The notes beneath the pieces were generated by a model. That model made no database searches and was not told where the DNA came from. It worked only from the letters and a program-made list of their open reading frames with translations. Below are positions 6,313-59,535 of a stretch of DNA of 64,000 nt, in pieces (the first letter of the stretch is position 1; the number at the start of each line of letters is the position of its first letter). The stretch lies in NCBI RefSeq assembly GCF_002902985.1, contig NZ_CP026167.1, forward strand, positions 2,356,001 through 2,420,000, given 5' to 3'. A program made the translations under genes and the position numbers. This DNA comes from Leclercia sp. LSNIH1 (GTDB lineage Bacteria; Pseudomonadota; Gammaproteobacteria; Enterobacterales; Enterobacteriaceae).

Positions 6313-6550
6313 AGTACTGTTTTTTGCGCAGGTGCGCGAGCTGGTGAATACCGACAGCCTGACGCTGGATATAGAGGTAGAAAACGTCGAAGCGCTGCGG
6401 GCGCATCTGGCGGCGCAAAGCGACCGCTGGGCGCTGGCGCTGGACGCGAGCAAACTGCTGGCGGCGGTAAACCAGACGCTGGTGGAGTTCACGCATCCGG
6501 TCAAACCGGGCGATGAGGTGGCCTTCTTCCCACCGGTGACCGGGGGCTGA
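6305..6550 (+). CDS. moaD: Molybdopterin synthase small (sulfur carrier) subunit MoaD
   Basis: MoaD is a ubiquitin-fold sulfur carrier. MoeB adenylates its C-terminal Gly-Gly, a thiocarboxylate is formed there, and with MoaE it puts the dithiolene sulfurs into precursor Z. Starting at ATG 6305 ([13 protein letters not shown]) gives 81 residues, the usual length, ending in PPVTGG. Longer in-frame starts would overlap moaC extensively and are unlikely. It overlaps moaC by 8 bases and is 1 base from moaE. Confidence 0.96.
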
Positions 6551-53011: not shown

Positions 53012-54274
53012 TCAGGCCATGCCGAGTGCGCGCTTGCCGTGAATGTTCAGATCATCAACGGTGAAACGTGACTGCCACGTCGCTTCATAATCTTCACGCG
53101 GGAAATCGCCTGGCGAGGCGCCGGTTTCCAGCGCCGCTTTTACCTTCTTCGCATAGGCGAGGTTTTTCTCACACATCGGCGCCGCCGGAATGTACATCAC
53201 GTTGCCCCAGCCCTGCTGGTTCTCGACCGGGGCCACCGAGTGGATCACATCGCAGTGCCACCACACGGAGTCACCTGCTTCCAGAGCCGGAATGCTGGTC
53301 AACGCTTCCATTAACAGCGGATGCCACTTCTCGGAGATCGGCAGCACGCGTCCTGGCGCCACGCCGCAGAGTTCATCTTCCGGCACATCATCCAGCAGCG
53401 GACGCAGCAGAATGTACGCCATCGCTTCCGGGATTGGCACCACGTGCAGCAGCCCCTGATCCGGGATCATATCTGAGAGCGCCGTCCAGCCCTGGAAGGT
53501 GCGGAACACCGAGCATTTGGTGGTGTTGTCCACGGTGTACTCTTCCACTTCGGTGCGGTGGGCGGCATCCCACGGATCGTACTGCTCGATATTGCCATCA
53601 AAGACCCGGGCGAAGACCTGCTGATAGGCCGGAAGCAACCAGCGCTCCAGCGCGCCGGAGTCAGTGTGCGCCCCCAGACCCTTCGAGGTGGTTCCCGGCG
53701 GACGGCGACGAATGCGGTCCGGGTAGATCACGCTGACGTCCGGGTTGAACCACTGCTTGCCGTTGCTCTCAAAAGTCCATAAACGGTTCAGGAATGACTG
53801 CACCTGGGCCATCTCTTCGCTCTGACGGGCTTCCATCTGGGCGTGCGACCAGTAGATCGGGTAGATCTCCGGGCGGGAGGCGGTGAGGGTGCCAAAGAAG
53901 TTATCCCCCGGACCTTTATAGACATCATCAAAACGGTTGAGATCCAGATAGTCGAGCATCGCGTTATCCCACGCCAGCGCCTGCTCACGCGGGAAATGAC
54001 CTTTGATTACCGCACAGCCCCGGCGTTTCACCGCCTCGCGCTGCGCCGGGCTGATGTTACCGCTCTGCACGTCGGCAAAGGGGATCACCGGCCAGACAGG
54101 ATCGCCTTTGCTTTTCAGGGCATTAATTTCTGCCACGCGGCTGGCAATTTTATCGCTCAGGCGATCAAACACGCCCTGCACGTCGCCAATCTGCGCCCGC
54201 AGGTCACGTTTCATCTGGCGGATGGCCGCTTTGTGATCAGCGGGCAAAGTTTCACTGGTAAACGTTAAGGTCAT
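53012..54274 (-). CDS. ybiU: DUF1479 protein YbiU (jelly-roll dioxygenase-like)
   Basis: YbiU is a 420-residue protein (E. coli 421) of the DUF1479 family, whose fold is that of Fe(II)/2-oxoglutarate oxygenases. HTD in LGAHTDSGALERW (about residue 219) and the later HSVAPVENQ (about residue 360) could supply iron ligands. Substrate is unknown. The ATG at 54274 is preceded by GCGAGGCTGTT; an in-frame ATG at 54295 overlaps the operator. The shared CTTTC-N4-GAAAG operator lies 15 bases upstream. Confidence 0.92.
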   Translation of the reverse strand: MTLTFTSETLPADHKAAIRQMKRDLRAQIGDVQGVFDRLSDKIASRVAEINALKSKGDPVWPVIPFADVQSGNISPAQREAVKRRGCAVIKGHFPREQALAWDNAMLDYLDLNRFDDVYKGPGDNFFGTLTASRPEIYPIYWSHAQMEARQSEEMAQVQSFLNRLWTFESNGKQWFNPDVSVIYPDRIRRRPPGTTSKGLGAHTDSGALERWLLPAYQQVFARVFDGNIEQYDPWDAAHRTEVEEYTVDNTTKCSVFRTFQGWTALSDMIPDQGLLHVVPIPEAMAYILLRPLLDDVPEDELCGVAPGRVLPISEKWHPLLMEALTSIPALEAGDSVWWHCDVIHSVAPVENQQGWGNVMYIPAAPMCEKNLAYAKKVKAALETGASPGDFPREDYEATWQSRFTVDDLNIHGKRALGMA

Positions 54275-54288
54275 AACAGCCTCGCTAT

Positions 54289-54302
54289 CTTTCATTCGAA
54301 AG
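54289..54302. promoter_or_regulatory. Shared operator, ybiU copy
   Basis: CTTTC-ATTC-GAAAG, an inverted repeat 15-28 bases before the ybiU start. The same 14-bp element occurs before ybiV and ybiY. The style is that of DeoR/LacI-type repressor sites; the factor is not known to me. Confidence 0.65.
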
Positions 54303-54424
54303 TAAAAGTAATTACAAGTGATACTTTAGGTTAAAAAAAAGTTAATGCAAGTTAAATAACTTGATGAAGTGCACAACCCGGAGAAAAAGAGGGAGGTTCG
54401 CCGGAGGAGGCTCCGGCGGGAAAA

Positions 54425-55240
54425 TCAGTTGCTGAAAGGCGGGGTGTTATCGAGGACGGCCTGAATCACGTTCAGCGCGCCCTGGTGGTTGTTGTCGTCG
54501 GTCTGATAGCGGGTGATGGCTTTGATATTTTCGCCCGCGTTACCCATGGCGAAGGAGTAGTGGGCAAATTTCAGCATTTCGGCGTCATTACCGCTGTCGC
54601 CAATGGCGACGCACGCCTGCGGGGAGATGTGCCAGCGTTTCAGCAGGCGGCTGATGCCGTTGGCTTTATGCAGGCCGGGAATGATCAGATCGACAAAGCC
54701 AAACCCGCTGGTCACCGGCTTCATGATGCCGTCGAGGGAGACATGCAGGGCGTCAATCAGGTTCGGGATATCGCTGTCCGGCAGGTTCAACGAGAACTTG
54801 AACAGTACGTCGTCGATGTCGCGATAGTCGCTGATGCGCTGTAAGCGGTGATAGTGTTTTGACATCAGGTCGACGAAGGCATCGGGTGCCTTGTCGCTGA
54901 CGTAAGCACTCTCCAGACCGCAGGCGACAAAATTCAGGGCGCTATCTTTCAGCAGTTCGCCAATGACAATCTGCGACTCATGTTTGGTCAGTTCGCCGTG
55001 GAAGATCTGCTCGCCGTGATCGAACACCAGCGCGCCGTTCTCCGCCACGAAGGAGATCTGCGATTTCAGCTCCGGGAAGAAGGAGATGAGCTGGTAATAC
55101 TGGTTGCCGCTGGCGACAACGAACTCGATATTGCGGGCCTGAAGTTGCTGGAACTGCGCCTGAAAGCGGTCACGATCGTACTGCTTGGCGTCATCAAGAA
55201 AAGTTCCGTCCATATCGGTGACGATAACTTTAACGGTCAT
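54425..55240 (-). CDS. supH: HAD-family sugar phosphatase SupH (YbiV)
   Basis: YbiV/SupH is a Cof-type HAD phosphatase acting on sugar phosphates such as erythrose 4-phosphate, ribose 5-phosphate and fructose 1-phosphate. From ATG 55240 it has 271 residues, the E. coli length. The nucleophile motif DMDGTF has Asp9 and Asp11, followed by [10 protein letters not shown] (motif II) and the C-terminal [12 protein letters not shown] (motif IV). The frame start at 55303 has a non-matching N-terminus and is rejected. The gene lies alone, behind the shared operator. Confidence 0.95.
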
Positions 55241-55288
55241 ACATTGCGCTCCTGGATATAACTGCGACCAGCAACATTCTAATAACAA

Positions 55289-55304
55289 TGTGACCAAAAC
55301 CACA
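55289..55304. promoter_or_regulatory. CRP-like site upstream of ybiV
   Basis: TGTGACCAAAACCACA matches TGTGA-N6-TCACA at nine of ten conserved positions. It is 49 bases before the ybiV start, next to the shared operator. The distance to any -10 I can propose is not canonical. Confidence 0.5.
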
Positions 55305-55310
55305 AATTTA

Positions 55311-55324
55311 ATTTCGAATGAAAG
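55311..55324. promoter_or_regulatory. Shared operator, ybiV copy
   Basis: ATTTC-GAAT-GAAAG, identical to the ybiY copy except for the first base, 71-84 bases before the ybiV start. Confidence 0.65.
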
Positions 55325-55330
55325 TGAAAA

Positions 55331-55400
55331 GCCGGGTGGCGCTGACGCTTACCCGGCCTACGGGGGGAATTGTAGGCCCGGTAAGCGTAGCGCCACCGGG
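55331..55400. repeat. REP pair between ybiW and ybiV
   Basis: GCCGGGTGGCGCTGACGCTTACCCGGC (55331-55357) and GCCCGGTAAGCGTAGCGCCACCGGGC (55375-55400) face each other. The pair ends just before the ybiW stop region. Confidence 0.8.
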
Positions 55401-55408
55401 CAATGGGG

Positions 55409-57841
55409 TTACAGCGTATGCTCAGTACGCGCAATAATATCGTCCTGCGCATCCGGTGACAGGGCGGTGAAGAATGCCGAGTAACCCGCCACGCGCACCA
55501 CCAGATCACGATACTGATCCGGGTGTTTCTTCGCTTCCAGCAGCGTTTCGCGCGACACGATGTTGTACTGGATATGCCAGCCTTTATGCACCTCGAAGAA
55601 GGTGCGCAGCAGCACCATCAGCTTCTGGCGGTCGCTGTCGTTATCCAGCGTCGCCGGGTTGAGCTTCTGGTTCAGCAGCACGCCACCCAGAATCGCCTCG
55701 GTCGGCAGTTTGCCCACGGAGCCGATAACCGCGGTTGGGCCCAGGTGGTCCGTACCGGAGGCCGGGCTGGCCCCTTCCGCCAGCGGAGTATGCGCTTTAC
55801 GCCCGTCCGGGGTCGCCATGGTTGCCGCGCCAAACGGCACGTTGGCGGAGATGGACGAGGTGCCGGCATAGTAGTTGCCGCCAATTGGACCGCGACCGTA
55901 GCGCGGGTTATGGTACTGCTTCAGCTCTTCGATGTAGGTCTGGTAGGCACGGGTCAGCAGCAGATCCACGCTGTCGTCGTCGTTGCCGTACTTCGGCGCG
56001 CCGTTGATCAGACGCTGGCGCAGCTGCTCGTGGGTCAGCCCCTCGTAATCATCCGCAAGGGCCGCCGCCAGCTGCTGCTGACCAATCGCCCCCTCTTCAA
56101 AGACCAGCTTCTTCACCGCCGCCAGGCTGTTGCCAAGGTTGGCGATGCCCACCTGCAGGCCGGATACCCAGTCGTACTTCGCGCCGCCCTGCTTTATGCT
56201 CTTCGCGCGCTCAATGCAATCATCCACCAGCGCCGAGCAGAGAATGTCGTGGACGTTCTCTTCCAGCATGGTGTCCACCACATATTCGATTTCGATGGAC
56301 TTGCGGGTGTAATAGCGGATCTGGCTATCCCAGGCGGCCATCACTTCGTCAAAGTTGTTGAAGTTGCCCGCCGAGAGCGCTTTTTCCTGCGGCAGGAATA
56401 CTTTACCGCTGGTGGCGTCGCGGCCACCCTCCATCGCCGCCAGCATCACGCGGGCGAAGTTAATGAAGCTCATGCCGGTGCAGCGATAGCCCCACTTGCC
56501 GCCCACGGCGGTTTCGATACAGCCGATGGCCGCATAGTCGTAGGCGTCCTCTTTCTCTACCCCGAGCTTGATAAATTCCGGGATCACAATCTCATCGTTG
56601 TTGAAGGCTGGCATCCCGAAGCCACAGCGGATCACCTGCACGCAGGCGTCGAGGAAGTCGTTGCTCATGCCTGCATGGTAGCGCACGCTCAGGTTCGGCT
56701 GGGTGGAGCGCAGACGACCGCAGGATTCCAGAATCGCGTAAGAGAGCGGGTTCACCGCATCCATCGCCATACCGTTCACCAGTTTCTGTCCGCCGATGGT
56801 AACGTTCTGATACAGCGGGCTACCGGCAGAGGCTTTGGAGTGGGAGCCGGAGCGGATCTTGTTCACCTCCAGCAGCTTCAGCCAGCAGCTGTGCAGCAGC
56901 TCAATGGCGTGCTCACGATCCAGAGACTGGTTCAGCTCCACGTCGCGGCGGTAGTACGGGTAGAGATACTGGTCCATCCGGGCAAAGGAGACCGAATGGC
57001 CGTTGGACTCAATCTGCAGGATCAGCTGGATGAAGTAGCACAGCTGCAACGCCTGCCAGAAGGTTTTTGGCGGTTCGTGGGCGATCACATCGCAGTTTTC
57101 CGCCATGGCCAGCAGTTCGTCGCGGCGGCGTTCGCGGGTTTCGCTGGCGGCCATCTCACGCGCCAGGTCGGCAAAGCGTTCGATATGCATACTTACCGCT
57201 TCCAGCACGATATCGATCGCTTTCAGGAACTGTTCACCGTGCAGATCATCCAGTACCGTCAGGTTGATGCGGGAGCGGCGCTCGGCCACCTTGTGGCGCA
57301 GGCCGTCGAGCCCCTTTTCCAGCAGCAGTGGGAAGTTCACCGCCAGGTGGGCGTCGCCGGAGGTCATGTTGCCTTCGGCTTTAATAATCCCGGTTTCCAG
57401 CAGGCCTTTTTGCTCATCGGTGAACATACCGTAGCAGCGATCCTGCACCGTCTGGCCACGCCACCACGGGCAGAGTTCATGCAGAACGCGTTTGTTCTCT
57501 TCGCTTACCGCAAAGCCCGCGCCCGGACGGTCGGCGAGATCGTCGATCTCTTTTTCAATCCACGAGACGGTGTATTCCGGGAAGATCGGCGCAGCGCGCA
57601 CTTCGCTTGCCTGGTTACCCATAATCAGTTCGTCATGTTTGATCCAGATGGTGCGCTGCGCCAGGTGATGCGCCAGGGCCAGCGCGCGGCGGACCGGGAT
57701 CGGCTTATCCATATGCTGCTGGTACATCTCGGTATAGTGCTGCGCACGTTCGGTACAGACCGGCGGCTTTACAATATGGACCAGGGCAGTTTTATGCGCC
57801 TTAATGCGATCGCTCAGGGTAGTAAGATTCAGCTGTGTCAT
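55409..57841 (-). CDS. ybiW: Glycyl-radical enzyme YbiW (PflF)
   Basis: YbiW is an anaerobic glycyl-radical enzyme once called a pyruvate formate-lyase homologue. The 810 residues match E. coli. The active-site GCIE has Cys441 and Glu443; the radical Gly786 is in RVAGYSAFF. It lacks the double-Cys site of true pyruvate formate-lyase, so it belongs with the dehydratase/lyase group. I recall a recent proposal that it is a 1,5-anhydroglucitol-6-phosphate lyase, which should be checked. It starts 5 bases after the ybiY stop and needs YbiY to install the radical. Control is probably by FNR and the shared repressor. Confidence 0.95.
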   Translation of the reverse strand: MTQLNLTTLSDRIKAHKTALVHIVKPPVCTERAQHYTEMYQQHMDKPIPVRRALALAHHLAQRTIWIKHDELIMGNQASEVRAAPIFPEYTVSWIEKEIDDLADRPGAGFAVSEENKRVLHELCPWWRGQTVQDRCYGMFTDEQKGLLETGIIKAEGNMTSGDAHLAVNFPLLLEKGLDGLRHKVAERRSRINLTVLDDLHGEQFLKAIDIVLEAVSMHIERFADLAREMAASETRERRRDELLAMAENCDVIAHEPPKTFWQALQLCYFIQLILQIESNGHSVSFARMDQYLYPYYRRDVELNQSLDREHAIELLHSCWLKLLEVNKIRSGSHSKASAGSPLYQNVTIGGQKLVNGMAMDAVNPLSYAILESCGRLRSTQPNLSVRYHAGMSNDFLDACVQVIRCGFGMPAFNNDEIVIPEFIKLGVEKEDAYDYAAIGCIETAVGGKWGYRCTGMSFINFARVMLAAMEGGRDATSGKVFLPQEKALSAGNFNNFDEVMAAWDSQIRYYTRKSIEIEYVVDTMLEENVHDILCSALVDDCIERAKSIKQGGAKYDWVSGLQVGIANLGNSLAAVKKLVFEEGAIGQQQLAAALADDYEGLTHEQLRQRLINGAPKYGNDDDSVDLLLTRAYQTYIEELKQYHNPRYGRGPIGGNYYAGTSSISANVPFGAATMATPDGRKAHTPLAEGASPASGTDHLGPTAVIGSVGKLPTEAILGGVLLNQKLNPATLDNDSDRQKLMVLLRTFFEVHKGWHIQYNIVSRETLLEAKKHPDQYRDLVVRVAGYSAFFTALSPDAQDDIIARTEHTL

Positions 57842-57845
57842 AACA

Positions 57846-58745
57846 TTATCCTCGTAAGGTCGCGGTTAACCCTTTCTGGGCGGCGTACTGCCGGGCAAAG
57901 TCCAGTAATGCAGGATTATCGAGTGGTTTATTAGGGGCAGAGTAGGGTTGGCCGAGCAGGGTGTATTTGTTCATGCCCAGCGTGTGATACGGTAAAAAAT
58001 GGATGTCACGGACGTTCAGTTCATCCGCGGCAAAATTGGTAATCGCGGTAATCGACGCTTCATCGGCGTTAAAGCCCTGGATCAGCGGCACGCGAATGGT
58101 GAGCGTTTTCCCGGCGGCGGCGAGGCGCCTGAGGTTATCCAGCACCCGTTTCGCCGAGCCGTCGGTCCACTGCTTAAAGACCGCGCCGTCGACATGTTTC
58201 AGGTCGGCGAGAAACAGATCGATGTACGGTAACGACGGTTCGATATAGTGCCACGGCACGTGCAGACAGGTTTCCACGGCGGTATGAATGCCCGCGTCGT
58301 GGCTGGCCTGGAAGAGGGCGCGGGCCAGCGTCGGGTTCATAAAAGGTTCGCCCCCGGAGAGGGTGACGCCGCCGCCGCTGCGATCGTAAAACGGCTTATC
58401 CCGCAGGACGGTGCTCATGATCTCTTCCACCTGCTTCTCTTCACCGCAGACGGTCAGGGCCTGAGTCGGGCAGCAGTGGGTGAGGGCATCCAGATGGGTA
58501 TCGTCGAGTTTTTCGCGGTGGATCACCAGGCCATTCAGCGTGCGGTGGATGACCGCGGGCGCCGCCTGCTGGCAGAGGTTACACCCCTCCAGGCACAGGC
58601 GAGCGTCGAACAGCAGATCCCGCGAGCGTTCGCGGCTTTCAGGGTTCTGACACCAGCGGCAGCACAGGGAGCAGCCTTTCATAAAGACCACGGTACGAAT
58701 CCCCGGGCCGTCGTGTGTCGAATAACGCTGAATGTTGAAGATCAT
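57846..58745 (-). CDS. ybiY: Glycyl-radical enzyme activase YbiY (PflE-like)
   Basis: YbiY is the radical-SAM activase that generates the glycyl radical in YbiW. The 299-residue protein starts [20 protein letters not shown] and has the activase cluster motif CSLCCRWC (Cys25-x3-Cys29-x2-Cys32), then a Cys-rich insert (CLEGCNLC) as in activases with extra Fe-S clusters, and the GGEP motif ([11 protein letters not shown], about residue 130). E. coli YbiY is about 308 residues, so slightly longer. It is first in the operon with ybiW. Confidence 0.94.
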
Positions 58746-58780
58746 AATGTCGCCTCTTGTTGCGTATGAATATTAAATTA

Positions 58781-58794
58781 CTTTCGAATGAAAG
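58781..58794. promoter_or_regulatory. Shared operator, ybiY/fsaA copy
   Basis: CTTTC-GAAT-GAAAG lies 36 bases before ybiY and 79 before fsaA. If the FNR-like box next to it acts at -41.5, this operator covers -16 to -29 of the ybiY promoter, a repressing position. Confidence 0.7.
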
Positions 58795-58799
58795 TTATC

Positions 58800-58813
58800 T
58801 TGACGCAAATCAA
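58800..58813. promoter_or_regulatory. FNR box of the ybiYW operon
   Basis: TTGAC-GCAA-ATCAA matches the FNR consensus TTGAT-N4-ATCAA at nine of ten positions. Centred at -41.5 it implies a start at 58765; at the right distance (58772-58777) the minus strand has TTTAAT, a 5/6 match to -10. This is a textbook class II anaerobic promoter for an oxygen-sensitive enzyme. Confidence 0.7.
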
Positions 58814-58872: not shown

Positions 58873-59535
58873 ATGGAACTGTATCTCGACACATCCGACG
58901 TCATTACTGTTAAAAAACTGGCCCGCATCTTTCCGCTGGCAGGCGTCACCACCAACCCAAGCATTGTTGCCGCGGGCAAAACGCCGCTGGAAGTCCTGCT
59001 GCCGCAGCTGCAGGAGGCGATGGGCGGCCAGGGCCGTCTGTTTGCCCAGGTGATGGCGACCAGCGCGGAAGGGATGGTGGAAGATGCGCTGAAGCTGCGC
59101 GGTATCGTCGCGGATCTGGTGGTCAAAGTGCCGGTCACGGCGGAAGGGCTGGCGGCCATTAAGATGCTGAAAGCGCAGGGTGTGCCGACGCTCGGTACGG
59201 CGGTCTACAGCGCGGCGCAGGGGCTGATGGCGGCGCTGGCGGGGGCGGAGTATGTCGCGCCCTATGTCAACCGCGTGGATGCGCAGGGCGGGGATGGCAT
59301 TCAGACGGTGGCGGAGCTGCAACAGCTGCTGACGCTCCACGCGCCGCACGCCAAAGTGCTGGCCGCGAGCTTCAAAACCCCGCGTCAGGCGCTGGATTGC
59401 CTGCTGGCGGGCTGTGAATCCATCACCCTGCCGCTGGATGTGGCCCAGCAACTGATTACCTCTCCGGCGGTGGACGCGGCGATTGCAAAATTTGAGCAGG
59501 ACTGGCAGAACGCCTTTGGACGGACATCGATCTGA
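58873..59535 (+). CDS. fsaA: Fructose-6-phosphate aldolase FsaA
   Basis: FsaA cleaves fructose 6-phosphate to dihydroxyacetone and glyceraldehyde 3-phosphate, or runs in reverse. The 220 residues equal E. coli FsaA; the Schiff-base Lys85 is in DLVVKVP, and the transaldolase-like VTTNPSI (25-31) is present. TGAGGACC precedes the ATG. The gene is divergent from ybiY with a shared control region, so the aldolase may serve the same pathway as YbiW. Confidence 0.96.

Follow-up and report, generated by a model that had tools for sequence, protein, structure and literature searches.

Introduction

AgaR, SrlR, UlaR, DeoR and GlpR control local sugar or sugar-phosphate regulons through operators of the TTTC/GAAA type. 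YciT belongs to the same DeoR family, and its recognition helix differs from theirs. In E. coli K-12, ChIP-exo placed YciT at ybiV, ybiY and fsaA, with peaks upstream of the operon ybiUVWY, fsaA and ybiO; ybiV, ybiY and fsaA were "differentially expressed" upon deletion of yciT (PMC8464067). The YciT passages of that paper name these three genes as targets and no separate ybiU site. The role they propose concerns osmolarity and not anhydrosugars. DNA chromatography combined with mass spectrometry found YciT enriched near -5 on the K-12 ybiY promoter, which serves ybiYW (PMC12132413, a 2025 preprint). This promoter is anaerobically active, and the preprint's account of it assigns no protein to an activator near -20. 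Reg-Seq assigned phnA to YciT (PMC7567609), and a component named YciT receives a mere mention in PMC11748552.

The central claim of this study, that YciT acts on the ybi genes and fsaA, is largely known for E. coli. Ma et al. reportedly described an anaerobic 1,5-anhydroglucitol pathway with YbiW. Its later steps run through FsaA and GldA, and we assume that the fsaA gene at this locus takes its place there. After uptake of the anhydrosugars by a PTS, YbiW and PflD convert 1,5-anhydroglucitol-6-phosphate and 1,5-anhydromannitol-6-phosphate to 1-deoxyfructose-6-phosphate without oxygen (PMC12441222). The passage on this pathway mentions neither its regulation nor YbiU or YbiV. The same article describes 1,5-anhydroglucitol-6-phosphate as the toxic metabolite that underlies neutropenia in two human diseases, so its turnover by bacteria is of wider interest.

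Here we add a separate operator of ybiU, the depth of operator conservation, the linkage of yciT to pathway genes, an operator in the promoter of yciT itself in other lineages, and a second input that differs from promoter to promoter. In the open-licence literature we met no description of yciT linkage to ybiW or ybiU, of the operator in its own promoter, or of the differing second sites.

Results and discussion

One inverted repeat at three promoters

An earlier note on this DNA had described a 14-bp element at three places, unique within the window, which is the whole 64-kb stretch analyzed. A pattern scan recovered its core, TTTCGAATGAAA, exactly at 54290-54301 (minus strand), 55312-55323 (plus) and 58782-58793 (plus), and nowhere else in the window. 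With up to two mismatches allowed there are only two further places, both with two mismatches. The element is an inverted repeat, CTTTC-N4-GAAAG, and its spacer is non-symmetric (GAAT, which reads ATTC in the opposite direction). Both arms are perfect in two of the three 14-mers. In the ybiV copy, A replaces the first C.

The operator of ybiU (54289..54302, minus strand) reads CTTTC-GAAT-GAAAG toward the gene. ybiU (53015..54274, minus) encodes a protein of the Gig2-like family PF07350 (DUF1479). The first start in the list of open reading frames, 54295, would overlap the element; the start that matches K-12 is 54274, so the element occupies a leader position, 14 nt before the ATG. A candidate promoter (54323..54350, minus) is formed by a -35 box TTGCAT at 54345-54350, a 16-nt spacer and a -10 box TAAAGT at 54323-54328; it was called by eye from the sequence and a 15-locus alignment, and the transcription start is predicted. 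The operator of ybiV (55311..55324, plus) reads ATTTC-GAAT-GAAAG and lies 70 nt before the start of ybiV (54425..55240, minus), which encodes a HAD-IIB (Cof-type) phosphatase. The third operator (58781..58794, plus), CTTTC-GAAT-GAAAG, is common to ybiYW and fsaA. It is 35 nt from ybiY (57846..58745, minus; a glycyl-radical-enzyme activase of the radical SAM type) and 78 nt from fsaA (58873..59535, plus; fructose-6-phosphate aldolase). ybiW (55409..57841, minus) encodes a glycyl radical enzyme, a near relative of the solved YbiW (8yjn, 8id7) of the 1,5-anhydroglucitol pathway (PMC12441222). In E. coli K-12, whose YciT is NCBIfam NF040887, all three elements occupy the same places upstream of ybiU, ybiV and ybiY/fsaA; one arm position of the ybiU copy is mismatched.

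At a GC content of 0.55, base composition predicts about 0.004 chance occurrences of the exact 12-mer per 64 kb, both strands counted, and 0.33 per genome. The whole genome (5.41 Mb) has five copies: the three in the ybi locus, one between bsmA and yjfP, and one within an open reading frame (L005). Counts across 29 relatives are 118 for the 12-mer and 11 for the reversed control pattern.

The earlier note had proposed conservation at the same three promoters across genera as a check, and the motif is found there. A search for YbiW in genome contigs returned 554 relatives, and the best 80 were used. Operators were counted when arms with at most two mismatches lay inside the 110 nt upstream of each gene. 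Among these best 80 of 554, the operator is kept in 67/68 loci at ybiU, 67/70 at ybiV, 80/80 at ybiY and, as the one shared with ybiY, 62/63 at fsaA. Controls gave 1/71 upstream of moeB, 2/80 upstream of ybiW and 4.8% of random 110-nt pieces of the same loci. The loci without a counted ybiU (12) or ybiV (10) are partly short contigs. In these 80 loci together with the window and K-12, the distance from operator to gene start is 34-39 nt at ybiY and 65-71 nt at ybiV; it is 7-25 nt at ybiU and 77-89 nt at fsaA, with one exception each. The spacer at ybiV is ATTC in 35 and GAAT in 26 of the 67 loci, a mixed orientation that a symmetric dimer would allow. Both arms have changed together in two loci, to CCTTC/GAAGG (L084) and GTTTC/GAAAC (L198).

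Second sites and the sign of regulation

The consensus for FNR is TTGAT-N4-ATCAA. An FNR-like site, TTGAC-GCAA-ATCAA (58800..58813, plus), lies 5 nt from the ybiY/fsaA operator. A match with at most two mismatches is found at this spacing in 80/82 cases (the window, K-12 and the best 80 of 554 relatives). One exception has a 3-mismatch match in place (L106), the other a match elsewhere (L060). Shuffled versions of the region contain a match in 9-11% of cases, counted anywhere in the region. This site may correspond to the activator near -20 that is reported in the preprint (PMC12132413).

A CRP-like site, TGTGG-N6-TCACA (55289..55304, minus), lies between the operator and the start of ybiV. 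It recurs with at most two mismatches in 70/72 loci, 44-49 nt upstream of the gene (window, K-12 and the best 80 of 554 relatives), compared to 6% in shuffled sequence. By eye, the site in the window apparently overlaps the likely core promoter instead of lying at the usual activating distance. Upstream of ybiU no constant second site was found; FNR-like matches (13/70) and CRP-like matches (9/70) are scattered, with 11% and 3%, respectively, in shuffled sequence (window, K-12 and the best 80 of 554). The promoters thus appear to combine one operator type with a differing second site, FNR-like at ybiY/fsaA and CRP-like at ybiV.

Judged by eye, the ybiU operator lies just downstream of the predicted transcription start, and the ybiY operator has the FNR-like site on one side and the -10 region on the other. 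These positions indicate that YciT most likely represses. The ybiV operator precedes the likely core promoter, a position from which repression would not be the first expectation. This position, that of the third operator at about 80 nt before the start of fsaA and the NCBI product name of YciT, "dual regulator", would fit a dual regulon in which YciT activates at least one promoter, ybiV or fsaA. We consider this possible but rather unlikely, as the ybiU and ybiY operators are positioned for repression and the operator of fsaA is also that of ybiY.

Looping between the operators was also considered. At the 10.5-bp period, helical phasing gave R 0.23 for 66 ybiU-ybiV distances and 0.05 for 69 ybiV-ybiY distances. 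The strongest of three periods was 11.0 bp, and this at just one of the intervals (R 0.35, with a Rayleigh z of 7.9, or 3.7 on 34 distinct distances). Because the loci are related and the lists contain outliers, looping is not claimed.

YciT as the probable regulator

The three elements are very probably operators of YciT, encoded elsewhere in the genome. The YciT relative of this genome (C1:3618213-3618950) is 78% identical to K-12 YciT, is located beside osmB as in K-12, and lies about 1.2 Mb from the ybi locus. The earlier note had placed the regulator outside the window, which agrees with this location, and had called it a DeoR/LacI-type protein. K-12 YciT matches PF08220 (DeoR HTH) and PF00455 (DeoR C-terminal sensor) above the cut-off, and no LacI family is among its Pfam matches, so the DeoR assignment stands and the LacI one is not supported. 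That a single regulator acts at all three promoters is in line with the published occupancy of ybiV, ybiY/fsaA and ybiYW by K-12 YciT (PMC8464067, PMC12132413). An anaerobic sugar-phosphate pathway as its target, also proposed earlier, fits the published anaerobic 1,5-anhydroglucitol pathway of YbiW (PMC12441222).

YciT is present in 30/30 operator-bearing genomes tested (30 of the best 80 of 554 YbiW relatives). Its recognition helix carries R-[QNH]-D in 27 YciT proteins, compared to R-R-D or R-K-D in ten paralogues. DeoR-family operators often have TTTC/GAAA half sites in common, and this genome contains 11 other matches to YciT, its other DeoR-family members being 23-36% identical to it. 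The elements might then belong to one of these proteins, the YciT signals in E. coli reflecting cross-binding. We regard this as highly improbable. The YciT recognition-helix residues occur in 0/9 paralogues extracted from the same genome, and it is yciT, and no paralogue, that travels with ybiYW, ybiU or fsaA and the operator. In addition, the published pull-down recovered YciT (PMC12132413).

Eight published K-12 targets outside the ybi enzyme genes and fsaA were checked for the element. Arms with 0 and 1 mismatch are found at ybiO and phnA, respectively; we take phnA to be a synonym of yjdM. The best arms have two mismatches at cusF, ycaP and ydbD, three at ompX and yfdQ, and four at ykfC. 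Fifteen control K-12 promoters gave one mismatch in one, two in one and three in thirteen. The mismatches at these six targets are little better than those of the controls. Six of the eight checked targets therefore have no close element, and the element marks only part of the target list. No element with fewer than two mismatches was found in 15 kb around pflD-fsaB-gldA of K-12.

Linkage of yciT to the pathway genes

Gene neighborhoods were compared in two overlapping samples, an order set of 158 genomes and a family set of 149. In the order set, YciT is present in 24 genomes and YbiW in 12, all of them within the 24. In 10 of these 12, yciT and ybiW are no more than about 510 bp apart, the exceptions being this genome and G110. 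The ybiY/fsaA region of the ten clusters contains arms with 0-1 mismatch in eight and with two mismatches in two (L173, L176). One distant cluster, L170, carries a lactose/cellobiose-type PTS (IIC, IIB, IIA) between fsaA and yciT. In the family set, YciT is present in 59 genomes, YbiW in 47 and orthologous YbiU (64% identity or more) in 33; YciT accompanies YbiW in 47/47 and orthologous YbiU in 33/33. A distance of at most 500 bp separates yciT from ybiW in 15/47, and one of at most 150 bp separates it from ybiU in 7/33. A distant DUF1479 relative (46-49%) occurs in 17 further family genomes, by eye away from yciT. The association of YciT has p = 7e-28, a value that ignores phylogeny and draws its negatives from a sample with many reduced genomes; we therefore place weight on adjacency only.

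Twelve family genomes have YciT and no YbiW, and the neighborhood was mapped in 11 of them, leaving out the half-complete G211. ybiU adjoins yciT in five, with ybiU operators at 0, 1, 1, 2 and 2 mismatches (the last two in L185 and L186). fsaA adjoins yciT in two, with an operator at one mismatch in L193 and none in L195. In L194 (G328), ybiYW fragments lie between fsaA and yciT, and no operator is found. Both genes are present and unlinked in G210, and no pathway gene is near yciT in G197 and G318. In L196 (G311), ybiU carries a stop. The pathway appears to be decaying in some lineages, judging from the ybiY and ybiW fragments of L194 and the ybiU stop of L196.

The operator is also found at yciT itself. 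In genus g10 a perfect copy stands 50-52 nt before yciT in 10/10 genomes; in families f20 and f21 a copy with 0-1 mismatch stands 45-49 nt before it in 4/4 genomes. No operator with at most one mismatch was found upstream of 34 unlinked yciT genes, including those of K-12 and this genome. The same holds upstream of cluster-linked yciT genes outside g10, f20 and f21, except in L193 and at the first gene of L170. The earlier note had suggested seeking a DeoR/LacI-type gene whose own promoter contains the motif; such a DeoR-type gene exists in 14 genomes of other families and not inside this family.

Origin of the K-12 yciT locus

In 28 of 30 yciT loci, yciH and osmB adjoin yciT as in K-12. yciT adjoins fsaA and osmB in L138, and L128 ends with its contig, so that its neighbors fall outside the data. 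In a tree of 64 YciT proteins, linked YciT occupies deep branches. The 33 orphans group in a single nested clade (support 100/99), in which the linked L168 and L169 are placed as well. The tree leaves out L192, the paralogue rows L025-L028 and L188b, and yciT of G211. Its root serves display purposes only, and long branches lead to L170, L197 and the L181/L182 pair. The gene order in L168 is pdeR ... fsaA-ybiY-ybiW-yciT-osmB-yciH-pyrF-lapB, and that in L169 is the same to pyrF. The whole fsaA-ybiY-ybiW-yciT cluster of these two genomes is therefore located between pdeR and osmB, at the address of K-12 yciT, and the K-12 neighborhood looks like a remnant, unless the cluster was inserted there. 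We infer that the enzyme genes moved away and that yciT of K-12 stayed in place; the alternative is a re-insertion in L168 and L169.

These neighborhoods suggest that the original job of YciT was control of the anhydrosugar pathway, not osmotic stress. A mainly osmotic-stress regulator with the ybi and fsa genes as minor targets would account for the position of yciT beside osmB in K-12, for the poorer growth of a yciT deletion strain at high salt, and for binding to the mechanosensitive channel gene ybiO (PMC8464067). Yet osmB has no operator (three mismatches at best). At ybiO in the window no counterpart of the K-12 site is in place; a match with one mismatch is found about 255 nt before the start of the gene. 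In deeper lineages yciT adjoins pathway genes, and in two genomes the fsaA-ybiYW-yciT cluster itself stands between pdeR and osmB. A primarily osmotic role thus appears very unlikely to us.

A model for the regulon

In the model that we favor, control of the anhydrosugar pathway by YciT, a YciT dimer would bind the CTTTC/GAAAG arms; occupancy is published for E. coli, and the base contacts are predicted. YciT would act as a repressor from an operator downstream of the predicted promoter at ybiU and from one flanked by the FNR-like site and the -10 region at ybiY. It is probably released by a phosphorylated pathway sugar, e.g. 1,5-anhydroglucitol-6-phosphate or 1-deoxyfructose-6-phosphate, given its DeoR sensor domain and the pathway. 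At ybiYW/fsaA, FNR would add an anaerobic signal through the conserved putative site, and CRP may likewise add a carbon signal at ybiV. YbiYW and FsaA would then perform the published anaerobic anhydrosugar pathway, and YbiU and YbiV may constitute a second YciT module.

YbiU has solved structures (2dbi, also 2csg), one of them titled "hypothetical protein". H203-T-D205 and H345 are invariant in 10 sequences. This H-x-D...H triad, whose residues would be the metal ligands, leads us to infer that YbiU may be an Fe(II)/2-oxoglutarate oxygenase. A more tentative reading, which we put forward as a possibility short of even odds, is that YciT is a dedicated sensor of phosphorylated anhydrosugars governing a pair of oxygen-switched branches through one operator type. 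YbiYW-FsaA, under FNR and YciT, would be the anaerobic branch. The oxygen-using branch would comprise the oxygenase-like YbiU and the phosphatase YbiV, and would remove or exploit this same toxic sugar phosphate under conditions in which the glycyl-radical enzyme is unable to function. The position of E. coli yciT beside osmB would then be the leftover of a pathway cluster once complete there.

Under the proposed regulon, the orphan E. coli regulator YciT would gain a specific job, and the presence of one operator type on anaerobic, carbon-related and uncharacterized enzymes would be explained. If this is true, YciT should be released by anhydrosugars, and in air these compounds or their phosphates should be substrates of YbiU.

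Further copies of the element

The copy outside the ybi locus in the bsmA-yjfP intergenic region lies at L001:1501-1512 in this genome and at L199:1835-1846 in K-12. Of the 118 places of the 12-mer in relatives, 40 picked outside the ybi locus were fetched, and two of these (L226, L234) proved to lie inside it. K-12, this genome and 20 of the 40 fetched loci all have the 12-mer upstream of bsmA at a distance of 63-65 nt. This spacing is kept and that to yjfP varies (62-63 or 105-113 nt), which assigns the element to bsmA. The 400 nt preceding yjfP contained perfect TTTC/GAAA arms in 0/9 deeper YciT-bearing relatives and 0/7 YciT-lacking genomes, and 1-mismatch matches in 2/9 and 2/7; bsmA was unrecognized in nine of these 16 genomes. 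The bsmA site is either a further YciT site or that of another regulator.

Several unusual arrangements of YciT genes were also seen. G201 has two (L197 and C1:2851506-2852237), one of 73% identity and one of 58% located beside ybiW; a duplication or a transfer of the linked form is suggested by this pair. In the compact L170 cluster (G132:C2:1-18000), two different YciT-like genes flank ybiYW, the PTS and fsaA, and perfect-arm elements are located at 6385 and 7637. In genus g10 (L181, L182, L257-L264), the gene with the perfect operator in its own promoter is YciT-like. No ybi or fsaA gene is nearby in its two mapped regions, L181 and L182, and in L181 a gene for a HAD-type phosphatase is located just upstream of the YciT-like gene.
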